A DNA stretch of 64,000 bases. Origin: Thalassospira lucentensis (lineage in GTDB: Bacteria; Pseudomonadota; Alphaproteobacteria; Rhodospirillales; Thalassospiraceae). Location: the NCBI RefSeq assembly GCF_001613805.1, contig NZ_LPVY01000005.1, forward strand, positions 434,001 to 498,000, in the 5' to 3' direction. Below, piece by piece: positions 39,217 to 47,423 of this stretch. A model generated the notes under the pieces. That model did not search any database. It was not told where the DNA came from and saw only the letters and a list, made by a program, of their open reading frames with translations. Made by a program: the position numbers and the translations under genes. How positions within the stretch are numbered: the stretch's first letter is position 1; the number at the start of each line of letters is the position of its first letter.

Positions 39217-40938
39217 TTATTCGGCGGCTTCGGCAAGCGGGGTGATATTGCGCGCTTCGTTTGCCAGTTGATCGAGTTTCTGAAGGACTTCGTGGGTTGC
39301 GGTTTCCATGCGGGCGAAGGCCGTTTCCGCAGCCACAATATCGCGGTTCCTGAAGGCCGTGATCGCCGCCTGACCGGCTTCGTGTTGTGCCAGATGCGGT
39401 GCCCGGATCGCGTCAAAAGACGGCAGATGGCGGAATGGCTTTGATGCCGGGCTGTCATACCATTTGCCAAACCGGCAGGCTTTGGCATCGCCCATGTGGA
39501 TATCGGCACTGCTGCCCAGTCCGGCCAGAAGTTCGGCAACGGATTTGAAGAAAACGGCATGTTCGGCGCGGGCACTTCGTATGGTCCGGTTTGGAATTTC
39601 ATACTGAACCAGTTCGGAAACCTGCGTTTCGATCAGGCCTTCGACCTGACCGATAACACCGATGGCCGACCGGATGGCCGCAACCTGCCCGCCGGTTTGT
39701 CCGGCGATGCCGGTAATGCCATCGCGGACGGCATCGGTTGCCCTGTTCTGTTCATCAAGGATGGTTGAAATATCGGCGATACGACGCGTCGTGTCTTCCA
39801 TCTTGGTGCCGATGTCACCCATTTCGCGGGCAACATCATTCATCACATTCTGCCCGCGTGAAACGGCATCATTGCCGCGCGCCATGGCATCGACAATCCC
39901 CTGTGTTTCGCCCTGCAGATTGACAATGCGGCTGCGGATTTCCTCGGTCGCGCGTGCGGTCTGCTGGCTAAGGGCCTTGACCTCGCCTGCGACGACGGCA
40001 AATCCCTTGCCGGCTTCGCCCGCGCGGGCGGCCTCGATTGTGGCGTTGAGCGCCAGAAGGTTGGTTTCGGCGGCAATTGCTTCGATGGATGCGACAATCT
40101 CGCCGATTTTTTCTGATGCCTCGGCCAGGGCATCGACCCGGCCAGATGCGTCCGACACCGCATGTGCAATGTCATCCATGCTACCAACGGCGTCCTTGAC
40201 GGTTTGCTGGCCATTGCGGGTGGCGGTGATGGCATCGGTCGCGTTATCGGCAGCAGCGCGGCCATTTTCGGCAATGTGGCTGATGCCTGAAACCATTTGA
40301 TCAATGGCGGCCGAAATCGATTGTGCCTTGCGGTCGACATCCTCGATGACATTCATCATGCGGGCATTGGATACGGCACTTTGGTTGATCGCAACGGACA
40401 GATCCATCGTGCGATCAAGCTGCTGATCGGCAAAGGCGTTTTCCGATGCGTTATGGCGTTTGACGGCACTGGCATCGCAATAGGCGGTCAAGGTCAGTTC
40501 GATATCGAGCAGCATGACCGATGTCAGCGAAGTGACAATGCTTGCCGCCTGACCGGCATTCCATCGATGGCGGGTAATGATCGCCTCGATCAGGGCATCG
40601 GTGATCGCATTATAGGTCGCGACGTAAAGTTTGGGGGTAATGCCGTGGGTTTCGTGGGCCTGGCCGATCTGGCTGGCCTGGATGACGAAAGCCTCGTCAA
40701 TCTTGCCGTCAAACAGGTTTTTCCAGTGATTTTGTAATGATTTCGTCAGGGACGCGATGGTCGCCTCCGAAAGCGGGGTGGCTTTCAGGTCGTCACTTTG
40801 GCTGATGGTTTTGTAAAAGCCTTCGGCGCGTTTGGCCGATTGATCGTGGATCAGTCCGGATGCCTTGCGCAAGGTGCCAAACGTTCCGGGCAGCACATTA
40901 TAAATATCCAGACGATTTTCCAGTTGCGACACAACCAA
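39217..40938 (-). CDS. Soluble globin-coupled chemoreceptor with C-terminal CZB domain
   Basis: This 573-residue cytoplasmic methyl-accepting chemotaxis protein has no membrane helices. Residues ~15-170 match the protoglobin sensor of HemAT-type receptors, with His95 in [19 protein letters not shown] as probable haem ligand. Residues ~190-430 form the signalling coiled coil with the conserved tip [20 protein letters not shown]. Residues ~455-555 match the chemoreceptor zinc-binding domain: His460, Cys488 in CRFGKWYD, His515 and His519. It should sense O2 or another haem ligand and report to CheA/CheW; zinc or hypochlorous acid may modulate it. Confidence 0.88.
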
Positions 40939-41059: not shown

Positions 41060-41977
41060 TCATGCAGCGTTTGACTGGGCTGATTCCGTTCGACAGGTTG
41101 CAATGATCCAGTCACGGAACGCCCGAACCGCAAAATTGTTTTCCTTTTCTTCGGGATAAACAACGTAATAGGCATGCCGGTTGGGGATCGATACGTCAAA
41201 GGGGGCGACAAGCCGCCCGTTATCAAGTTCTTCGCGCACCAGAAATTCCGGCAGAAGGGCCAGCCCCAATCCGGCGACGGCGGCCTGGATCACCATGTGG
41301 AAATGTTCGAACCTGGGACCGGCAAGTTCATCGACAACCGCAACGCCGGTTGCGGCCAGCCAGTCCTGCCACGCGCGCGGACGGGTGGAATGTTGCAACA
41401 GGGTGCAATTGCGGACCCGTTCACGCGCAATCGGCAGGTCATCATTTTCCTTAAGGATTTTGGGCGCGCAGACCGCAATCAGGGTTTCGCCCATCAGGCG
41501 GTGAAACACGCAGCCGGGCATGTTGTCTTCGCCAAAATGGATGGCGATATCGATGCCTTCGCGGGTGAAATTGAATTCGCGGGTCTGGGTGATCAGGTTA
41601 AGCTGGATATCCGGCCACGTGGTTTTGAAATCCCCCAGTCGCGGCACCAGCCAGCGCGCGCCAAAGGTCGGCAATGTCCCGACATTCAGCATCCCGCCCG
41701 CATCGGAATAGGCCATGACCTGCAAGGTTGCGGCTTCTGCGCGATCCAGAAGATCGCGCACCTGTGCGGCATAGGCTTCGCCCGCCGCCGTCAGTTTCAG
41801 GCGTTTCTTCACCCGACGAAAAAGATCCCGGCCCAGATATTCCTCCAGTGCGCGGATTTGTCGGCTGATAGCACTTTGCGTCACGTTCAGTTCCTCGGCC
41901 GCACGGGTAAAGCTGAGATGCCGGGCAGAGCTTTCGAAAAATTGCAGGGCTGTGAGGGACGGCAGGACGCGACGCAT
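41060..41977 (-). CDS. LysR-family regulator divergent from the lysine operon
   Basis: This 305-residue regulator has an N-terminal helix-turn-helix (FTRAAEELNVTQSAISRQIRALEEYLGRDLF) and a co-inducer domain. It is a GcvA-like LysR (LPSLTALQFFESSARHLSF opening). It diverges from the hglS-led operon at 180 bp distance and is therefore the obvious candidate activator of that operon, perhaps with 2-aminoadipate or pipecolate as effector. I found no clear TTTAG-type palindrome in the shared gap. Confidence 0.88.
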   Translation of the reverse strand: MRRVLPSLTALQFFESSARHLSFTRAAEELNVTQSAISRQIRALEEYLGRDLFRRVKKRLKLTAAGEAYAAQVRDLLDRAEAATLQVMAYSDAGGMLNVGTLPTFGARWLVPRLGDFKTTWPDIQLNLITQTREFNFTREGIDIAIHFGEDNMPGCVFHRLMGETLIAVCAPKILKENDDLPIARERVRNCTLLQHSTRPRAWQDWLAATGVAVVDELAGPRFEHFHMVIQAAVAGLGLALLPEFLVREELDNGRLVAPFDVSIPNRHAYYVVYPEEKENNFAVRAFRDWIIATCRTESAQSNAA

Positions 41978-42156
41978 GTGTTTTGATCCCCAAGTTCATT
42001 ACCAAATGGAATGATATGGTGCGAATATATCGTTTGTGAGAATTCCTGCCAAGTCTTAGCATTTCAATGGTTCGGAACCCCTCGTGCCACCACATGATCC
42101 TTCCGGACAGTAAAATTGATCGGGTAATTGATAATATTACGGAAGGAGAGGCAGAA

Positions 42157-43218
42157 ATGCCCCAGCCAGTTAAATCCCCGCTAGACAGCCAGCTTGGTGC
42201 CGTTCTCAAGGCTGTTCTTGGTGCGGAGAAGGCCGATTATCTGTTTCGCATGATTGATGTTCATGATCGGCTTCTGGCCGATCCTGCGAATGAGGTCGGA
42301 AAAGTCAGCCGCCTGACGATGGCGCAGGCGCTTAACATGATCCTGTTTGATGGTCTTTTGGAAGCCGTTCCCGAAGGCAAAGCCTATTCCGAGGATAAAC
42401 TGGCCGCGGGCGAGCCGATCATTTTCGATCATGGTGCCATTCGTACCGTCGATGGCCCGGCAACCGGCGAATTGCCGCGCGGTCATGTTGCCATGGCGCG
42501 CATCCTTGCGCCGCTTGGGTTCGATGTTGCCGGTCTTTACCCGCTGTCGCGTTTGAAAATGACGGGTCGGGCGTTTTGCCATGCTGATGAACCTGAACTG
42601 ATTGCGCAGTTCTTTGTGTCCGAACTTCATGTCGAAGAATTCAGCCCGGCCTTCCAGCAGGCGGTTGCCAATACGGTTGGCAAATCGGTTGATCCGCTGT
42701 CGCCCGGTGCCAAGGTCCTGCTGGATCAGTTGGCCGATAACGGCAATATCGGTTTTGCCGATGCCACCAAGCTTCTGCCGGTTCTGGTCAAATGTTTCGG
42801 CGCGCAGCACGGCCCGGTAGCCGAGGCCGATTATGAGGTCCTTTTGGCAGAGTCGGCCGAAATGGCGTGGATTTCGACCGAAGGCAATGCGTTCAATCAT
42901 GCAACGGATCGGGTTGACGATATCGAGGCTGTCGCCAGCGAACAGCGCGCCAAAGGTCGCCCGATGAAGGAAAAGGTCGAGATTTCCAGCACCGGATCGG
43001 TGCGTCAGACCGCATTCAAGGCAACCCGTGTCCTGCGTCAGATGCGTGATGCCAATGGCGATCTGGTGACCCGCGATGTGCCCGGTTCCTTCTATGAATT
43101 CATCAGCCGCGATCACGTGCGTGACGAGACGACCGGTGAACAAAAACTTGATCTGCGATTTGACAGCAGCAATGCACAGGGCATCTTTAAGATGACTGCC
43201 GGAAGCAAGGCGGCATAA
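42157..43218 (+). CDS. hglS: 2-oxoadipate dioxygenase/decarboxylase (HglS-type, DUF1338)
   Basis: This 353-residue DUF1338 protein is related to the metalloenzyme HglS, which converts 2-oxoadipate and O2 to D-2-hydroxyglutarate and CO2 in Pseudomonas lysine catabolism. The metal ligands expected for the family appear as His92 (FDHGAIRT), His248 (AFNHATDR) and Glu314 (FYEFISRD). It is shorter than the ~460-residue Pseudomonas protein. ATG 42157 follows GGAAGGAGAG; the frame is open further upstream. First gene of a four-gene operon. Confidence 0.85.
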   Translation: MPQPVKSPLDSQLGAVLKAVLGAEKADYLFRMIDVHDRLLADPANEVGKVSRLTMAQALNMILFDGLLEAVPEGKAYSEDKLAAGEPIIFDHGAIRTVDGPATGELPRGHVAMARILAPLGFDVAGLYPLSRLKMTGRAFCHADEPELIAQFFVSELHVEEFSPAFQQAVANTVGKSVDPLSPGAKVLLDQLADNGNIGFADATKLLPVLVKCFGAQHGPVAEADYEVLLAESAEMAWISTEGNAFNHATDRVDDIEAVASEQRAKGRPMKEKVEISSTGSVRQTAFKATRVLRQMRDANGDLVTRDVPGSFYEFISRDHVRDETTGEQKLDLRFDSSNAQGIFKMTAGSKAA

Positions 43219-43295
43219 GGAAGCAAAAAGGCCGGAATGCCGGAACGGATTGTACCGTTCCGGTTTCAAAACATTCTATCGGGTGACAGGCGATC

Positions 43296-44483
43296 ATGGG
43301 ATCAGTGGACGAAAATTATGATGTCATCATTGTGGGCGGGGCTGTTATCGGAAGCTCCGCCGCATGGTTTTTGACCGGGCGGGATGATTTCAAGGGCCGT
43401 GTTCTGGTCATTGAAAAAGACCCGAATTATGAATTCTGTTCGACAACCCTGTCGGCGGCCTCGATCCGTCAGCAGTTTTCGACCCCGATCAATATTGAAA
43501 TGTCGGGTTTTGGCATTGAATTCCTGCGCAACCTGAAACGTGATCTTGATCCCGAAGTCGATATTTCCTTCCATGAAAAGGGCTATCTGGTTCTGGCTAC
43601 CGAGTCCGGGCGCGATATCCTGCGTCAGAATCACGCAACCCAGACCAAGCTGGGGGCCGACATCGTCTGGATGGAACCCGACGAACTGGCGGCCAAATAT
43701 CCGTGGATGAGCACATCCGATCTGGCGGCGGCCTGCTGGGGCCGTACCGGCGAGGGATGGTTTGATGCCTATTCCCTGATGCAATCCTTCCGCAAACAGG
43801 CCCGCCGTCAGGGGGCCGATTATATCGACGGCGAAGTTGTCGAGGTTCTGCGCGATGGCGATCAGGTCACGGGTGTGGTCCTGAAAGATGGACGGCGGTT
43901 TGGCTGCGGGGCGCTGATTAACGCGGCGGGAACCGGTGGATCAAAAGTTGCCCGCATGGCGGGGCTTGAAATCCCGGTCGAGCCGCGCAAACGGTGCATC
44001 TTTGTGTTTGATTGCCGTGATGCGGCCGACATTAACGCGGCCTGCCCGATGCTGATTGATCCAAGTGGCCTTTATGTCCGCCCCGAAGGCGATCTTTTCA
44101 TTACGGGCATTGCACCGCCCGCGGACCGTGATCCGGAATGCTGGGACTTCGAAGTCGATTACAGCCTGTTTGACGATATCATCTGGCCGGGACTTTACGA
44201 GCGTTGCGAACGGTTTGAGGCGATCAAGATGGTCAATGCCTGGGCCGGGCATTATTCCTATAACCTGCTTGATCAGAACGCGATCATCGGTCCGCATCCC
44301 GAGGTAAAGAACTTCTTCTTTGCCAATGGTTTTTCGGGCCACGGATTGCAGCAAAGCCCGGCAGTTGGCCGTGGCCTTTCGGAACTGATCGTCGCAGGCC
44401 ATTACCAGACCCTTGATATGTCCGTGTTCGGCTATGAGCGCATCCGCGACAATGCCCCGGTTCTGGAACTGAACGTGATTTAA
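43296..44483 (+). CDS. FAD-dependent amine/amino acid oxidoreductase (DAO family)
   Basis: This 395-residue FAD oxidoreductase begins with an ADP-binding motif DVIIVGGAVIGSSAAWFL, and also has STTLSAASIRQQFS, LINAAGTGGSKVA and a C-terminal FANGFSGHGLQQSPAVGRGLSEL typical of DadA/sarcosine-oxidase/FOXRED1-like enzymes. In this operon the most economical role is oxidation of L-pipecolate (AmaA function) or of a D-amino acid feeding 2-aminoadipate semialdehyde. The substrate is inferred from context, not from residues. Confidence 0.85.
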   Translation: MGSVDENYDVIIVGGAVIGSSAAWFLTGRDDFKGRVLVIEKDPNYEFCSTTLSAASIRQQFSTPINIEMSGFGIEFLRNLKRDLDPEVDISFHEKGYLVLATESGRDILRQNHATQTKLGADIVWMEPDELAAKYPWMSTSDLAAACWGRTGEGWFDAYSLMQSFRKQARRQGADYIDGEVVEVLRDGDQVTGVVLKDGRRFGCGALINAAGTGGSKVARMAGLEIPVEPRKRCIFVFDCRDAADINAACPMLIDPSGLYVRPEGDLFITGIAPPADRDPECWDFEVDYSLFDDIIWPGLYERCERFEAIKMVNAWAGHYSYNLLDQNAIIGPHPEVKNFFFANGFSGHGLQQSPAVGRGLSELIVAGHYQTLDMSVFGYERIRDNAPVLELNVI

Positions 44484-44545
44484 ATCGATTTCGTAACGAA
44501 TATTCGAAATCAATAACTTAACGATGAAAGCCGGAGCAACCCCAC

Positions 44546-45889
44546 ATGCCCCGTGACGATATGACCAACCAGACACAAGATGCCGCGATGGACGCCACCA
44601 CTGTCACGGCACGCCAGAAACACAGCGTTTCAAATGGTATTCGCACTCTGCACCCGATTTATCTGGATCGGGCGCTTAATGCCGAAGCCTGGGATATCGA
44701 TGGCAATCGTTATATCGATTTCATCGGCGGGATCGGGGTGCTGAATACCGGGCATCGCAATCCGGTCGTGATGGACCGTGTGGCAGCGCAGTGCGAACGT
44801 TTTACCCATTCGTGCTTTAACGCGTTGCCCCATGAACCTTATGTCGCGGTAACCGATTGGCTGGCGCAAAACTGCCCGATTGAAGGTCCGGCAAAATCGA
44901 TGCTTACCAATTCCGGGGCGGAGGCGATGGAAAATGCCCTCAAACTCGCCCGCGCCTTTACCGGCCGGACGGGTGTTCTGGCCTTTGAAGGGGCGTTTCA
45001 TGGCCGAACCCTTGCGACCCTTGCGCTGACGGGCAAAACCAAACCCTACAAGACCGGGCTTGGGCCGCTTCCGGGGCCGGTTTACCATTTGCCATATCCC
45101 TGCCGTGAAACCGGTGTATCGGTGGCCGATGCAATGGACGCAATTGCCAGATTGTTTGCCGTATCGGTCGACCCCGGAAGCATCGGTGCCGTGGTGATCG
45201 AACCCGTGCAGGGCGAAGGTGGTTTCAGGGCGTGCGACGCGGCGTTCCTTGCCGAACTGCGCCGTCTTTGCGATGCCAATGGCATGGTTCTGATCGCTGA
45301 TGAAATCCAGTCGGGCTTTGGCCGGACGGGTAAGATGTTCGCCATCGAGCATGCCAATGTCTGCCCCGACATCCTCGTGATGGGCAAGGGCATTGGCGGT
45401 GGTTTCCCGCTGGCGGCGATCACGGGGGCGGAGGATGTAATGAATGCCCTGCTGCCCGGTGGTCTGGGCGGAACCTATTCCGGCAATCCGGTGGCCTGTG
45501 CGGCGGCAACCGGTGTGTTCGAGGTGCTGGAAACAGACGGCATTTTGAACCGTGCCAAGCAGCTTGGCGAAAAATATGCCACCCATATTTCCTGGTTGCG
45601 TGATTTGCCCGGCGGGCATGTGATTGGCGCGATGCGGGGTATTGGCGCAATGCGCGCCTTCGAATTGATCGCAGATGACGGGGCACCGTCGCCGAAACGT
45701 CTGCAAACATTATTGCAACTGGCCCGTGCAAGCGGGCTATTGTTGATGCCAAGTGGTGAACACGCCAATGTGGTGCGCCTTCTGGCCCCGCTGACCATTC
45801 CGTTCGAACAGGTCGATGAAGCTTTTGCCATCATCGGCAAGTTGCTGCCAAAGCTGGCGGCGGTGTCGGATGCGGATGACCGGTCGTGA
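44546..45889 (+). CDS. Class-III PLP aminotransferase, probable 2-aminoadipate transaminase
   Basis: This 447-residue PLP enzyme of the GABA/ornithine transaminase class has LTNSGAEAMENALKLAR (PLP phosphate binding), GAFHGRTLATL, Asp252 in LIADEIQSGFGRTG and the Schiff-base Lys281 in GKGIGGGFP. Sequence alone suggests 4-aminobutyrate aminotransferase. A relative in Pseudomonas putida acts on 2-aminoadipate, and the neighbouring amaB and hglS genes make that the preferred reading here. Confidence 0.85.
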   Translation: MPRDDMTNQTQDAAMDATTVTARQKHSVSNGIRTLHPIYLDRALNAEAWDIDGNRYIDFIGGIGVLNTGHRNPVVMDRVAAQCERFTHSCFNALPHEPYVAVTDWLAQNCPIEGPAKSMLTNSGAEAMENALKLARAFTGRTGVLAFEGAFHGRTLATLALTGKTKPYKTGLGPLPGPVYHLPYPCRETGVSVADAMDAIARLFAVSVDPGSIGAVVIEPVQGEGGFRACDAAFLAELRRLCDANGMVLIADEIQSGFGRTGKMFAIEHANVCPDILVMGKGIGGGFPLAAITGAEDVMNALLPGGLGGTYSGNPVACAAATGVFEVLETDGILNRAKQLGEKYATHISWLRDLPGGHVIGAMRGIGAMRAFELIADDGAPSPKRLQTLLQLARASGLLLMPSGEHANVVRLLAPLTIPFEQVDEAFAIIGKLLPKLAAVSDADDRS

Positions 45890-45923
45890 TCGCCGTAAAA
45901 CTCAAAAAGAAGGGAGCTTAACC

Positions 45924-47423
45924 GTGAGTTTCAAAAACATTCTGACCGAACTGGGCCTGTCCGAGGCCGAGATTTCCAATGGTACGCTTAAGGTTCAGAC
46001 CCCGGTTGACGGTTCTGAAATTGCGGCTGTTGCCGAAACCGATCCGTCGGAAATGAACGACATCATTGCGCGTTCGAAAAAGGCATTTGCCCAGTGGCGT
46101 CAGGTGCCCGGCCCGCGCCGTGGTGAACTGGCCCGTCTTCTGGGCGAGGAACTGCGCGCGGTCAAGGAACCGCTGGGACGTCTGGTGTCGCTTGAATGCG
46201 GCAAGATCTATCAGGAAGGTCTTGGCGAAGTTCAGGAAATGATCGATATCTGCGATTTTGCCGTCGGCCTGTCGCGTCAGCTTTACGGTCTGACCATCGC
46301 GTCCGAACGTCCGGGCCATAAAATGATGGAAAACTGGCATCCGCTGGGCGTTGTTGGCGTCATTTCGGCGTTTAACTTCCCGGTTGCCGTCTGGTCTTGG
46401 AATACCGCGCTTGCACTGGTCTGCGGGAACTCGGTGATCTGGAAACCGTCGGAAAAAACCCCGCTTACCGCCCTTGCCTGCCAGAAAATCTTTGAAAAGG
46501 CATTGGCGAAATTTGGTGATGCGCCGGAAGGCCTGCATCATGTCGTCATCGGCGATCGTCGCATTGGCGAAGCCCTTACCGACAGCCATGATGTGGCACT
46601 TGTTTCGGCAACCGGTTCGACCCGTATGGGCCGCGAAGTTGCCCCGCGTGTGGCGGAACGTTTTGGCCGTACCATCCTGGAACTGGGTGGCAACAATGCC
46701 ATGATCGTGACCCCGTCTGCCGACCTTGATATGACTGTGCGTGCGGTGGTCTTCTCGGCGGTTGGCACCTGTGGCCAGCGTTGCACATCCCTGCGTCGCG
46801 TGATTGTCCATAAGGACGTCAAAGACGAATTGCTGCCGAAAATCGTTGCTGCCTATAAATCGGTAAAGATTGGCGATCCGCTTGCCGATGGTACGCTTGT
46901 CGGCCCGCTGATTGACGAAGACAGCTTCAACAACATGCAAACTGCCCTTGCCAATGCGAAAAAGGATGGCGGGAAAGTGCATGGCGGTGAACGTACACTG
47001 GCCGATCAGTATCCGAACGCCTATTACGTCACCCCTGCGGTTGTTGAAATGCCGTCGCAGACCGAAACCGTACGCAACGAGACCTTTGCGCCAATCCTGT
47101 ATGTCATGACCTATGAAACGCTTGAAGAAGCCATTGCGCTTCAGAACGGCGTGCCCCAGGGCCTGTCATCCTGCATCTTCTCGACCGATCTGCGGGAAAC
47201 CGAACTGTTCCTGTCGGCGGTTGGTTCGGATTGCGGGATCGCCAACGTCAATATCGGCCCGTCGGGTGCGGAAATCGGCGGTGCGTTTGGCGGTGAAAAA
47301 GAAACCGGTGGCGGACGTGAATCGGGTTCGGACGCATGGAAAGGCTATATGCGTCGTGCGACCAACACGATCAACTATTCCCGCGAACTGCCGCTGGCGC
47401 AGGGGATTAAATTCGATATCTGA
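45924..47423 (+). CDS. amaB: L-aminoadipate-semialdehyde/piperideine-6-carboxylate dehydrogenase (ALDH7, AmaB-like)
   Basis: This 499-residue aldehyde dehydrogenase oxidises 2-aminoadipate 6-semialdehyde to 2-aminoadipate. Catalytic Glu253 (LELGGNNAM) and Cys287 (GQRCTSL) are present, and the C-terminal GSDAWKGYMRRATNTINYS and LPLAQGIKF match the antiquitin/ALDH7A1 branch. I chose GTG 45924 because AGGGAG precedes it; an upstream ATG at 45816 would overlap the aminotransferase. Fourth gene of the operon, followed by a hairpin terminator. Confidence 0.92.
   Translation: MSFKNILTELGLSEAEISNGTLKVQTPVDGSEIAAVAETDPSEMNDIIARSKKAFAQWRQVPGPRRGELARLLGEELRAVKEPLGRLVSLECGKIYQEGLGEVQEMIDICDFAVGLSRQLYGLTIASERPGHKMMENWHPLGVVGVISAFNFPVAVWSWNTALALVCGNSVIWKPSEKTPLTALACQKIFEKALAKFGDAPEGLHHVVIGDRRIGEALTDSHDVALVSATGSTRMGREVAPRVAERFGRTILELGGNNAMIVTPSADLDMTVRAVVFSAVGTCGQRCTSLRRVIVHKDVKDELLPKIVAAYKSVKIGDPLADGTLVGPLIDEDSFNNMQTALANAKKDGGKVHGGERTLADQYPNAYYVTPAVVEMPSQTETVRNETFAPILYVMTYETLEEAIALQNGVPQGLSSCIFSTDLRETELFLSAVGSDCGIANVNIGPSGAEIGGAFGGEKETGGGRESGSDAWKGYMRRATNTINYSRELPLAQGIKFDI

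Follow-up and report, generated by a model that had tools for sequence, protein, structure and literature searches.

Architecture of the receptor gene

The window, a 64,000-nt stretch of a Thalassospira lucentensis contig, carries on its reverse strand a gene for a soluble chemoreceptor in which a globin, an MCP signalling domain and a CZB domain follow one another (Table 1). The open reading frame starts with a TTG codon at position 40938, and the homologue L009, 94% identical to the receptor over an alignment spanning all 573 residues, has a methionine at the same codon. The frame is open and this homologue covers the whole receptor, so there is no sign of a false fusion. Chance or artefact was ruled out by the three Pfam domains above cut-off together with near full-length orthologues, among the matches listed, in 18 of the 29 genus genomes (the window's own included). 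The three-domain globin/MCP/CZB receptor is genuine and apparently uncharacterised, and it is of a kind that is already known.

The search for Protoglobin, MCPsignal and CZB domains suggested in the earlier note returned all three above their Pfam cut-offs; the refuting outcome named there, profile searches without support for a globin, did not occur. The N-terminal protoglobin proposed there was further supported by a HemAT sequence match and a predicted globin fold (see below), the central signalling hairpin by the MCPsignal match, and the C-terminal CZB domain by its Pfam match and by four ligand residues lying exactly where they had been placed. A separate search of the host genome put the CZB domain at the same position as Pfam. 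The claim that the receptor is soluble was also borne out: no transmembrane-like segment was found by a hydropathy scan of the receptor, in which the best 19-residue mean was 1.51, against 2.48 for L062 (dCache) and 2.44 for L049 (HAMP) under identical scoring. No PAS domain was matched in the receptor by Pfam, its place being occupied by the Protoglobin domain, and no NCBIfam family scored above cut-off.

Table 1. Features of the receptor gene and of its upstream neighbour; positions are those of the window and residue numbers those of the receptor
Feature	Position	Strand	Evidence
Soluble chemoreceptor, 573 aa, Protoglobin + MCPsignal + CZB	39217..40938	-	ORF, Pfam, hydropathy
Protoglobin domain, residues 18-156	40471..40887	-	Pfam E 1.6e-23, 83.8 bits (cut-off 25)
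MCP signalling domain (MCPsignal), residues 231-412	39703..40248	-	Pfam E 4.5e-35, 121.5 bits (cut-off 34.6)
CZB domain, residues 460-526	39361..39561	-	Pfam E 1.3e-9, 38.7 bits (cut-off 29.4)
Tyr42, predicted distal-pocket residue (HemAT-Bs Tyr70)	40813..40815	-	1or4 alignment; 18/18 orthologues
His95, predicted proximal haem ligand (HemAT-Bs His123)	40654..40656	-	1or4 alignment; 18/18 orthologues
His460, predicted zinc ligand	39559..39561	-	Position check; 18/18 orthologues
Cys488, predicted zinc thiolate, within CRFGKWY	39475..39477	-	Position check; 18/18 orthologues
His515, predicted zinc ligand	39394..39396	-	Position check; 18/18 orthologues
His519, predicted zinc ligand	39382..39384	-	Position check; 18/18 orthologues
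LysR-type regulator, upstream same-strand neighbour, separate from receptor	41060..41977	-	Pfam

Predicted haem and zinc sites

When the N-terminal piece was compared with PDB chains by phmmer, HemAT was matched (1or4, E 8.6e-7), and the residues opposite its haem-site positions could be read from the alignment. In HemAT, His123 is the proximal ligand, Tyr70 the distal signalling residue, and Thr95 lies in the distal pocket (PMC13401364). Besides the equivalents of the first two (Table 1), Ser67 of the receptor, a position read for this protein alone, stands opposite Thr95, so that a hydroxyl is present there. An AlphaFold2 model of residues 3-168, built from 27 aligned domains, reached a mean pLDDT of 95.7. 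Its best fold match in VIA-align was the AfGcHK globin (Z 16.5, rmsd 2.3, 147 aligned residues), HemAT following with Z 16.3, and the top 13 rows were all globin sensor domains with Z from 16.5 to 14.5 (AfGcHK, Geobacter GCS, HemAT, a Thermosynechococcus globin domain, BpeGReg and E. coli DosC). On sequence and model, the N-terminal domain is a credible haem globin, with haem binding predicted.

At the other terminus, residues 488-494 fit CX(L/F)GXW(Y/L), a motif for recognising CZB domains (PMC8262984). No chain was matched when the CZB piece was compared with PDB chains by phmmer to E 5, and CZB membership therefore rests on Pfam and the motif. The HCHH zinc set was kept in 111 of 113 distinct CZB rows.

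Conservation within Thalassospira

Tyr42, His71, His95 and the four zinc ligands were kept in all 18 orthologues. Column counts were taken from an alignment of 16 of them, two near-copies being omitted. In the globin, 20 of 139 columns were invariant, and Tyr42, His71 and His95 belong to these despite a pair identity that falls as low as 28%; in the CZB domain, 20 of 67 columns were invariant and CRFGKW was unchanged in every row. Five orthologue pairs gave dN/dS values (NG86) of 0.10-0.22 for the globin, 0.03-0.16 for the MCP and 0.10-0.27 for the CZB part, with dS close to saturation in the two most distant pairs. The LysR gene was found within the 1.5-kb flanks at 16 of the 18 loci, which supports orthology even for the five orthologues at about 55% identity. 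Five diverged orthologues (L018-L022) keep Tyr42, His71 and His95 and have lost Tyr105 and Tyr109; the two that were scanned gave lower Pfam globin scores (45.6 bits for L018 and 43.5 bits for L021). Because of this loss and the lower score, the globin ligand of these five may differ.

Other chemoreceptors of the host

The host genome gave 33 matches to MCP and a single one to CheA, so the output of the receptor must pass through this single CheA, unless another was missed. It also encodes a plain globin-MCP of 467 aa, confirmed by a Pfam scan as lacking CZB (L001, G000:C9:7925-9220(-)). By coverage and frame length, rows resembling L001, the only one of them scanned with Pfam, occur in at least 26 of the 29 genus genomes, and ten plain globin-MCPs from the genus, with open frames of 442-467 aa, gave no CZB match.

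Relatives beyond the genus

Of 385 genomes sampled from the class, at least 22 gave a match with an E value no higher than 1e-50. Pfam confirmed the globin, MCP and CZB combination in at least four genomes, the window's own not counted: G079 and G140, which have two copies apiece, G217 and G338. At most three candidates per genome were scored in this search, and the counts are lower bounds. A globin HMM made for the analysis, and built partly from proteins that it later matched, hit 26 of the best 80 of 285 loci, a set ranked by likeness to the receptor CZB in which proportions are biased. The N-terminus was missing at a contig end in a further three of these 80 (L094, L111 and L115). The 26 comprise ten Thalassospira loci, seven from Azospirillum (including the haem-less L078), two Methylocystaceae MAGs, two loci of the MAG UBA2562, a Kiloniellales MAG, a Rhodospirillales MAG, an alphaproteobacterial MAG, Terasakiella pusilla and Sporosarcina sp. 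HYO08 (Bacillota).

Pfam checks cover 19 relatives (P0001 apart, and with plain MCP-CZB and HemAT rows uncounted). Among ten of the 80 loci that were scanned, seven had all three domains above cut-off. The globin of L078 fell below threshold (20.2 bits against a cut-off of 25), and L103 and L118 gave no globin in the Pfam scan and no N-terminal Pfam domain at E 0.001. Matches spanning 93-96% of the query lie on three Azospirillum plasmids, and related chromosomal or contig copies from this genus were scanned for domains (L092). One plasmid-borne protein, AZOLI_RS28335 on AZO_p5 of A. lipoferum 4B, is annotated only as 'methyl-accepting chemotaxis protein'; it is 37.3% identical to the receptor over query residues 21-552, a span that takes in the globin, MCP and CZB parts.

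Two members of the wider set have features of their own. The Sporosarcina sp. HYO08 protein (L105:1088-2842(+)) is a globin-MCP-CZB receptor in Bacillota with three domains above Pfam cut-off, and L042:1213-3195(-) has the same three domains followed by a C-terminal PilZ-like stretch (E 0.0052, below cut-off).

Loss of the haem site and placement of the receptors

Of 38 distinct proteins matched for globin as well as CZB, 18 of them the Thalassospira orthologues, 36 kept both sites: the haem His is present in 37 (all except L078) and the zinc set also in 37 (all except L039). Over all 44 aligned N-termini, the haem His was absent from seven (L078, L023, L024, L034, L038, L040 and L075), which also lack the haem Tyr, and the zinc set was intact in all seven. 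Apart from L078, the N-terminal domains of these receptors gave no match to the globin HMM. L023, L024 and L034 are haem-less Thalassospira relatives. A model of the L023 N-terminal domain (pLDDT 79) is globin-like and lies nearest to 3zta (Z 11.1) and 3pmc (Z 10.8), although helical folds with Z below about 13 may share only a common arrangement. The former is a stressosome protein and the latter a sporulation inhibitor; neither is known to contain haem. It is possible that the seven domains are non-haem sensor globins. A similar case is Agrobacterium Atu0514, which is without three conserved globin residues (PMC10851874).

Rows resembling the haem-less receptors were also seen in G013 and G017. 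The reverse case is L039:1180-3027(+), in which the globin haem His is kept and the equivalents of His460, Cys488 and His515 have been lost from the CZB domain.

Trees were built on the MCP and CZB part, with 97 rows and then as a quick tree with 58; the former has long branches (L133, L109, L130 and L105) and open forks. Because the 58 rows were picked from the 97 after seeing the first tree, with long branches omitted, the p-values deserve less trust than their size suggests. On the 58-row tree, a single clade was rejected for the 28 globin-type rows (p-AU 3.29e-07), of which 22 have the haem His and six are haem-less, globin kinship being inferred for five of the latter. Once L042 and L057 were removed, a single clade of the other 26 rows was tolerated (p 0.314). 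A single clade for the six haem-less rows was likewise rejected (p 5.41e-10), so haem has probably been lost more than once. The separate placement of globin-type receptors fits repeated joining of the two domains, although loss may also account for it; change counts cannot separate gain from loss. Sporosarcina L105 lay outside the constraint test and its placement is unsure. In the 97-row tree, six long CZB receptors (L103, L108, L110, L116, L118 and L136, with open frames of 561-645 aa) lie near part of the globin group.

Comparison with characterised receptors

Helicobacter pylori TlpD and Salmonella McpA have in common with the receptor the MCP hairpin, the C-terminal CZB domain, the set of three His and one Cys and the CX(L/F)GXW(Y/L) motif. 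TlpD carries an N-terminal PAS domain in which no pocket is obvious, and McpA is without PAS (PMC12871147), whereas the receptor described here has a globin with haem-ligand residues. The PAS domain is also missing from most TlpD orthologues outside Helicobacter (PMC12871147), and it is therefore not a defining feature of the family. HemAT-Bs and Atu1027, in turn, share the N-terminal globin, the His123 and Tyr70 equivalents and the soluble MCP; the plain globin-MCPs of the genus, which are of the HemAT type, are shorter and without CZB, whereas this domain follows the hairpin here. The receptor has every tested sequence feature of globin-coupled MCPs and of TlpD-like CZB receptors, the PAS domain of TlpD excepted.

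Globin and CZB receptors have each been linked to oxygen taxis, in separate work. Aerotaxis through Atu1027 needs its globin His100 (PMC10851874), and attraction to O2 is reported to run through the CZB receptor McpA, a response explained there by zinc availability (PMC13370339, preprint). The earlier note did not know the combination as characterised. The pairing itself turned out to be listed: in a CZB survey, the legend of Fig. 6 names 'globin' among the domains of CZB proteins, without accession (PMC8262984). A categorically new pairing is ruled out by that listing and by the globin-CZB relatives found here. The other half of the statement held, in that no functional work on the pairing was found in the available portion of the survey, and no experimental study (haem, zinc or taxis) of a globin-CZB receptor was found among the matches listed from the open-licence literature, Thalassospira aerotaxis included.

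Proposed working of the receptor

We consider it fairly probable that the protein is a cytoplasmic oxygen/redox-taxis chemoreceptor in which two cofactor sensors act on one signalling hairpin. An MCP is a hairpin whose N- and C-termini come together at the end far from CheA. Because of this folding back, the globin and the CZB domain should share one end. The arrangement given in the earlier note, with the gas sensor at one end and the zinc site at the other, is thus right along the chain and fails in the folded receptor. The reported first full-length structure of a soluble chemoreceptor, the crystal structure of TlpD, likewise has the N-terminal PAS domain near the CZB loops (PMC12871147, preprint).

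In the proposed mechanism, the globin would bind haem, alter its shape in response to O2, to a different gas or to oxidised iron, and thereby push the coiled coil through its N-terminal helix, as HemAT does. The CZB domain would bind Zn2+ through His460, Cys488, His515 and His519; on loss of Zn2+, caused by Cys oxidation or by less available Zn2+, it would push the C-terminal helix as in TlpD and McpA. In TlpD, loss of zinc coordination goes with changes in the CZB domain, the PAS interface, the coiled coil and the hairpin tip (PMC12871147). With the globin in place of the PAS domain of TlpD, haem and zinc would exert their effects on adjacent helices within one dimer, and since both domains would lie side by side, distal to CheA, their effects could add, oppose or gate each other. 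On the simplest reading, the globin would report gas directly and the CZB domain would report redox state or zinc; both inputs would then concern the oxidising strength of the surroundings. Joint integration of oxygen and oxidant stress, as the earlier note suggested, is put forward as a hypothesis, by analogy with these receptors.

Several observations count against this explanation, the possible change of ligand in L018-L022 among them. The authors of the TlpD structure regard its N-terminal PAS domain as perhaps mechanical rather than sensory (PMC12871147). A zinc-Cys mutant of McpA kept O2 attraction of similar size (PMC13370339, preprint); that response can therefore do without the Cys. 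The HemAT globin can bind ethanol without involvement of haem (PMC7542364). Haem is dispensable for a receptor of this kind to persist, because the haem-less relatives keep the zinc set. Moreover, the cell may have its main O2 sensor elsewhere, because the genome also encodes the plain globin-MCP.

A bolder reading makes the receptor a comparator of two cofactors: haem and zinc, whose chemistries are unrelated and would both report oxidising conditions, would lie next to each other on the hairpin and jointly set CheA activity, so that the cell finds an oxygen window instead of merely more or less oxygen. On this reading, the combination was assembled more than once, and haem was repeatedly dropped while zinc was kept. 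We regard it as tentative and less likely than not; if it were true, the haem-less relatives would be natural single-sensor controls.

Three other explanations were weighed. It is doubtful, yet conceivable, that the protein serves a role other than aerotaxis, the globin sensing an input other than O2 (NO, CO, sulphide, the redox state of iron, or a small organic compound such as an alcohol) and the CZB domain zinc availability. AfGcHK, among the best fold rows for the modelled globin, responds to the redox state of its iron, and the separate plain globin-MCP in the same genome also agrees with such a role. So does the haem-independent ethanol binding of the HemAT sensing domain (PMC7542364). 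However, the distal Tyr and the Ser67 hydroxyl match distal-pocket residues of HemAT (PMC13401364), which counts against this reading.

We find it unlikely that the CZB domain is the working sensor and the globin mainly a dimerisation or mechanical cap, its haem perhaps serving stability and giving no separate signal. The seven N-termini that lost the haem His with their zinc sets intact would suit such a cap, as would the globin-like fold predicted for the haem-less L023 in a model of moderate quality and the PAS domain of TlpD, which lacks an obvious pocket (PMC12871147). A mechanical cap would not need Tyr42, His71 and His95, however, and these are kept in every orthologue although the globin around them has diverged.

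That the CZB domain is zinc-free in this lineage, leaving effectively a HemAT with an inert tail, is highly improbable. In its favour, L039, a globin-MCP relative, has lost three of the ligands, and the CZB score here lies below that of relatives such as L035 (60.3 bits). Against it, all orthologues keep the four ligands, none of the 16 aligned rows departs from CRFGKW and the HCHH set is nearly universal among CZB rows.

Taken with its haem-less congeners L023, L024 and L034, a protein with both sensors would offer a clean test of how two cofactor signals are combined, and the role of CZB with a direct gas sensor beside it could be tested as well. Should signalling come from one site alone, the repeated disappearance of the haem site would show how the sensors of chemoreceptors decay.

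Near the LysR gene, a gene run at 42067-47423(+) of the window contains HGLS (2-oxoadipate dioxygenase/decarboxylase) and an FAD oxidoreductase by Pfam, and then aminotransferase-like and aldehyde-dehydrogenase-like ORFs recognised by eye alone; the run suggests lysine/2-aminoadipate breakdown.
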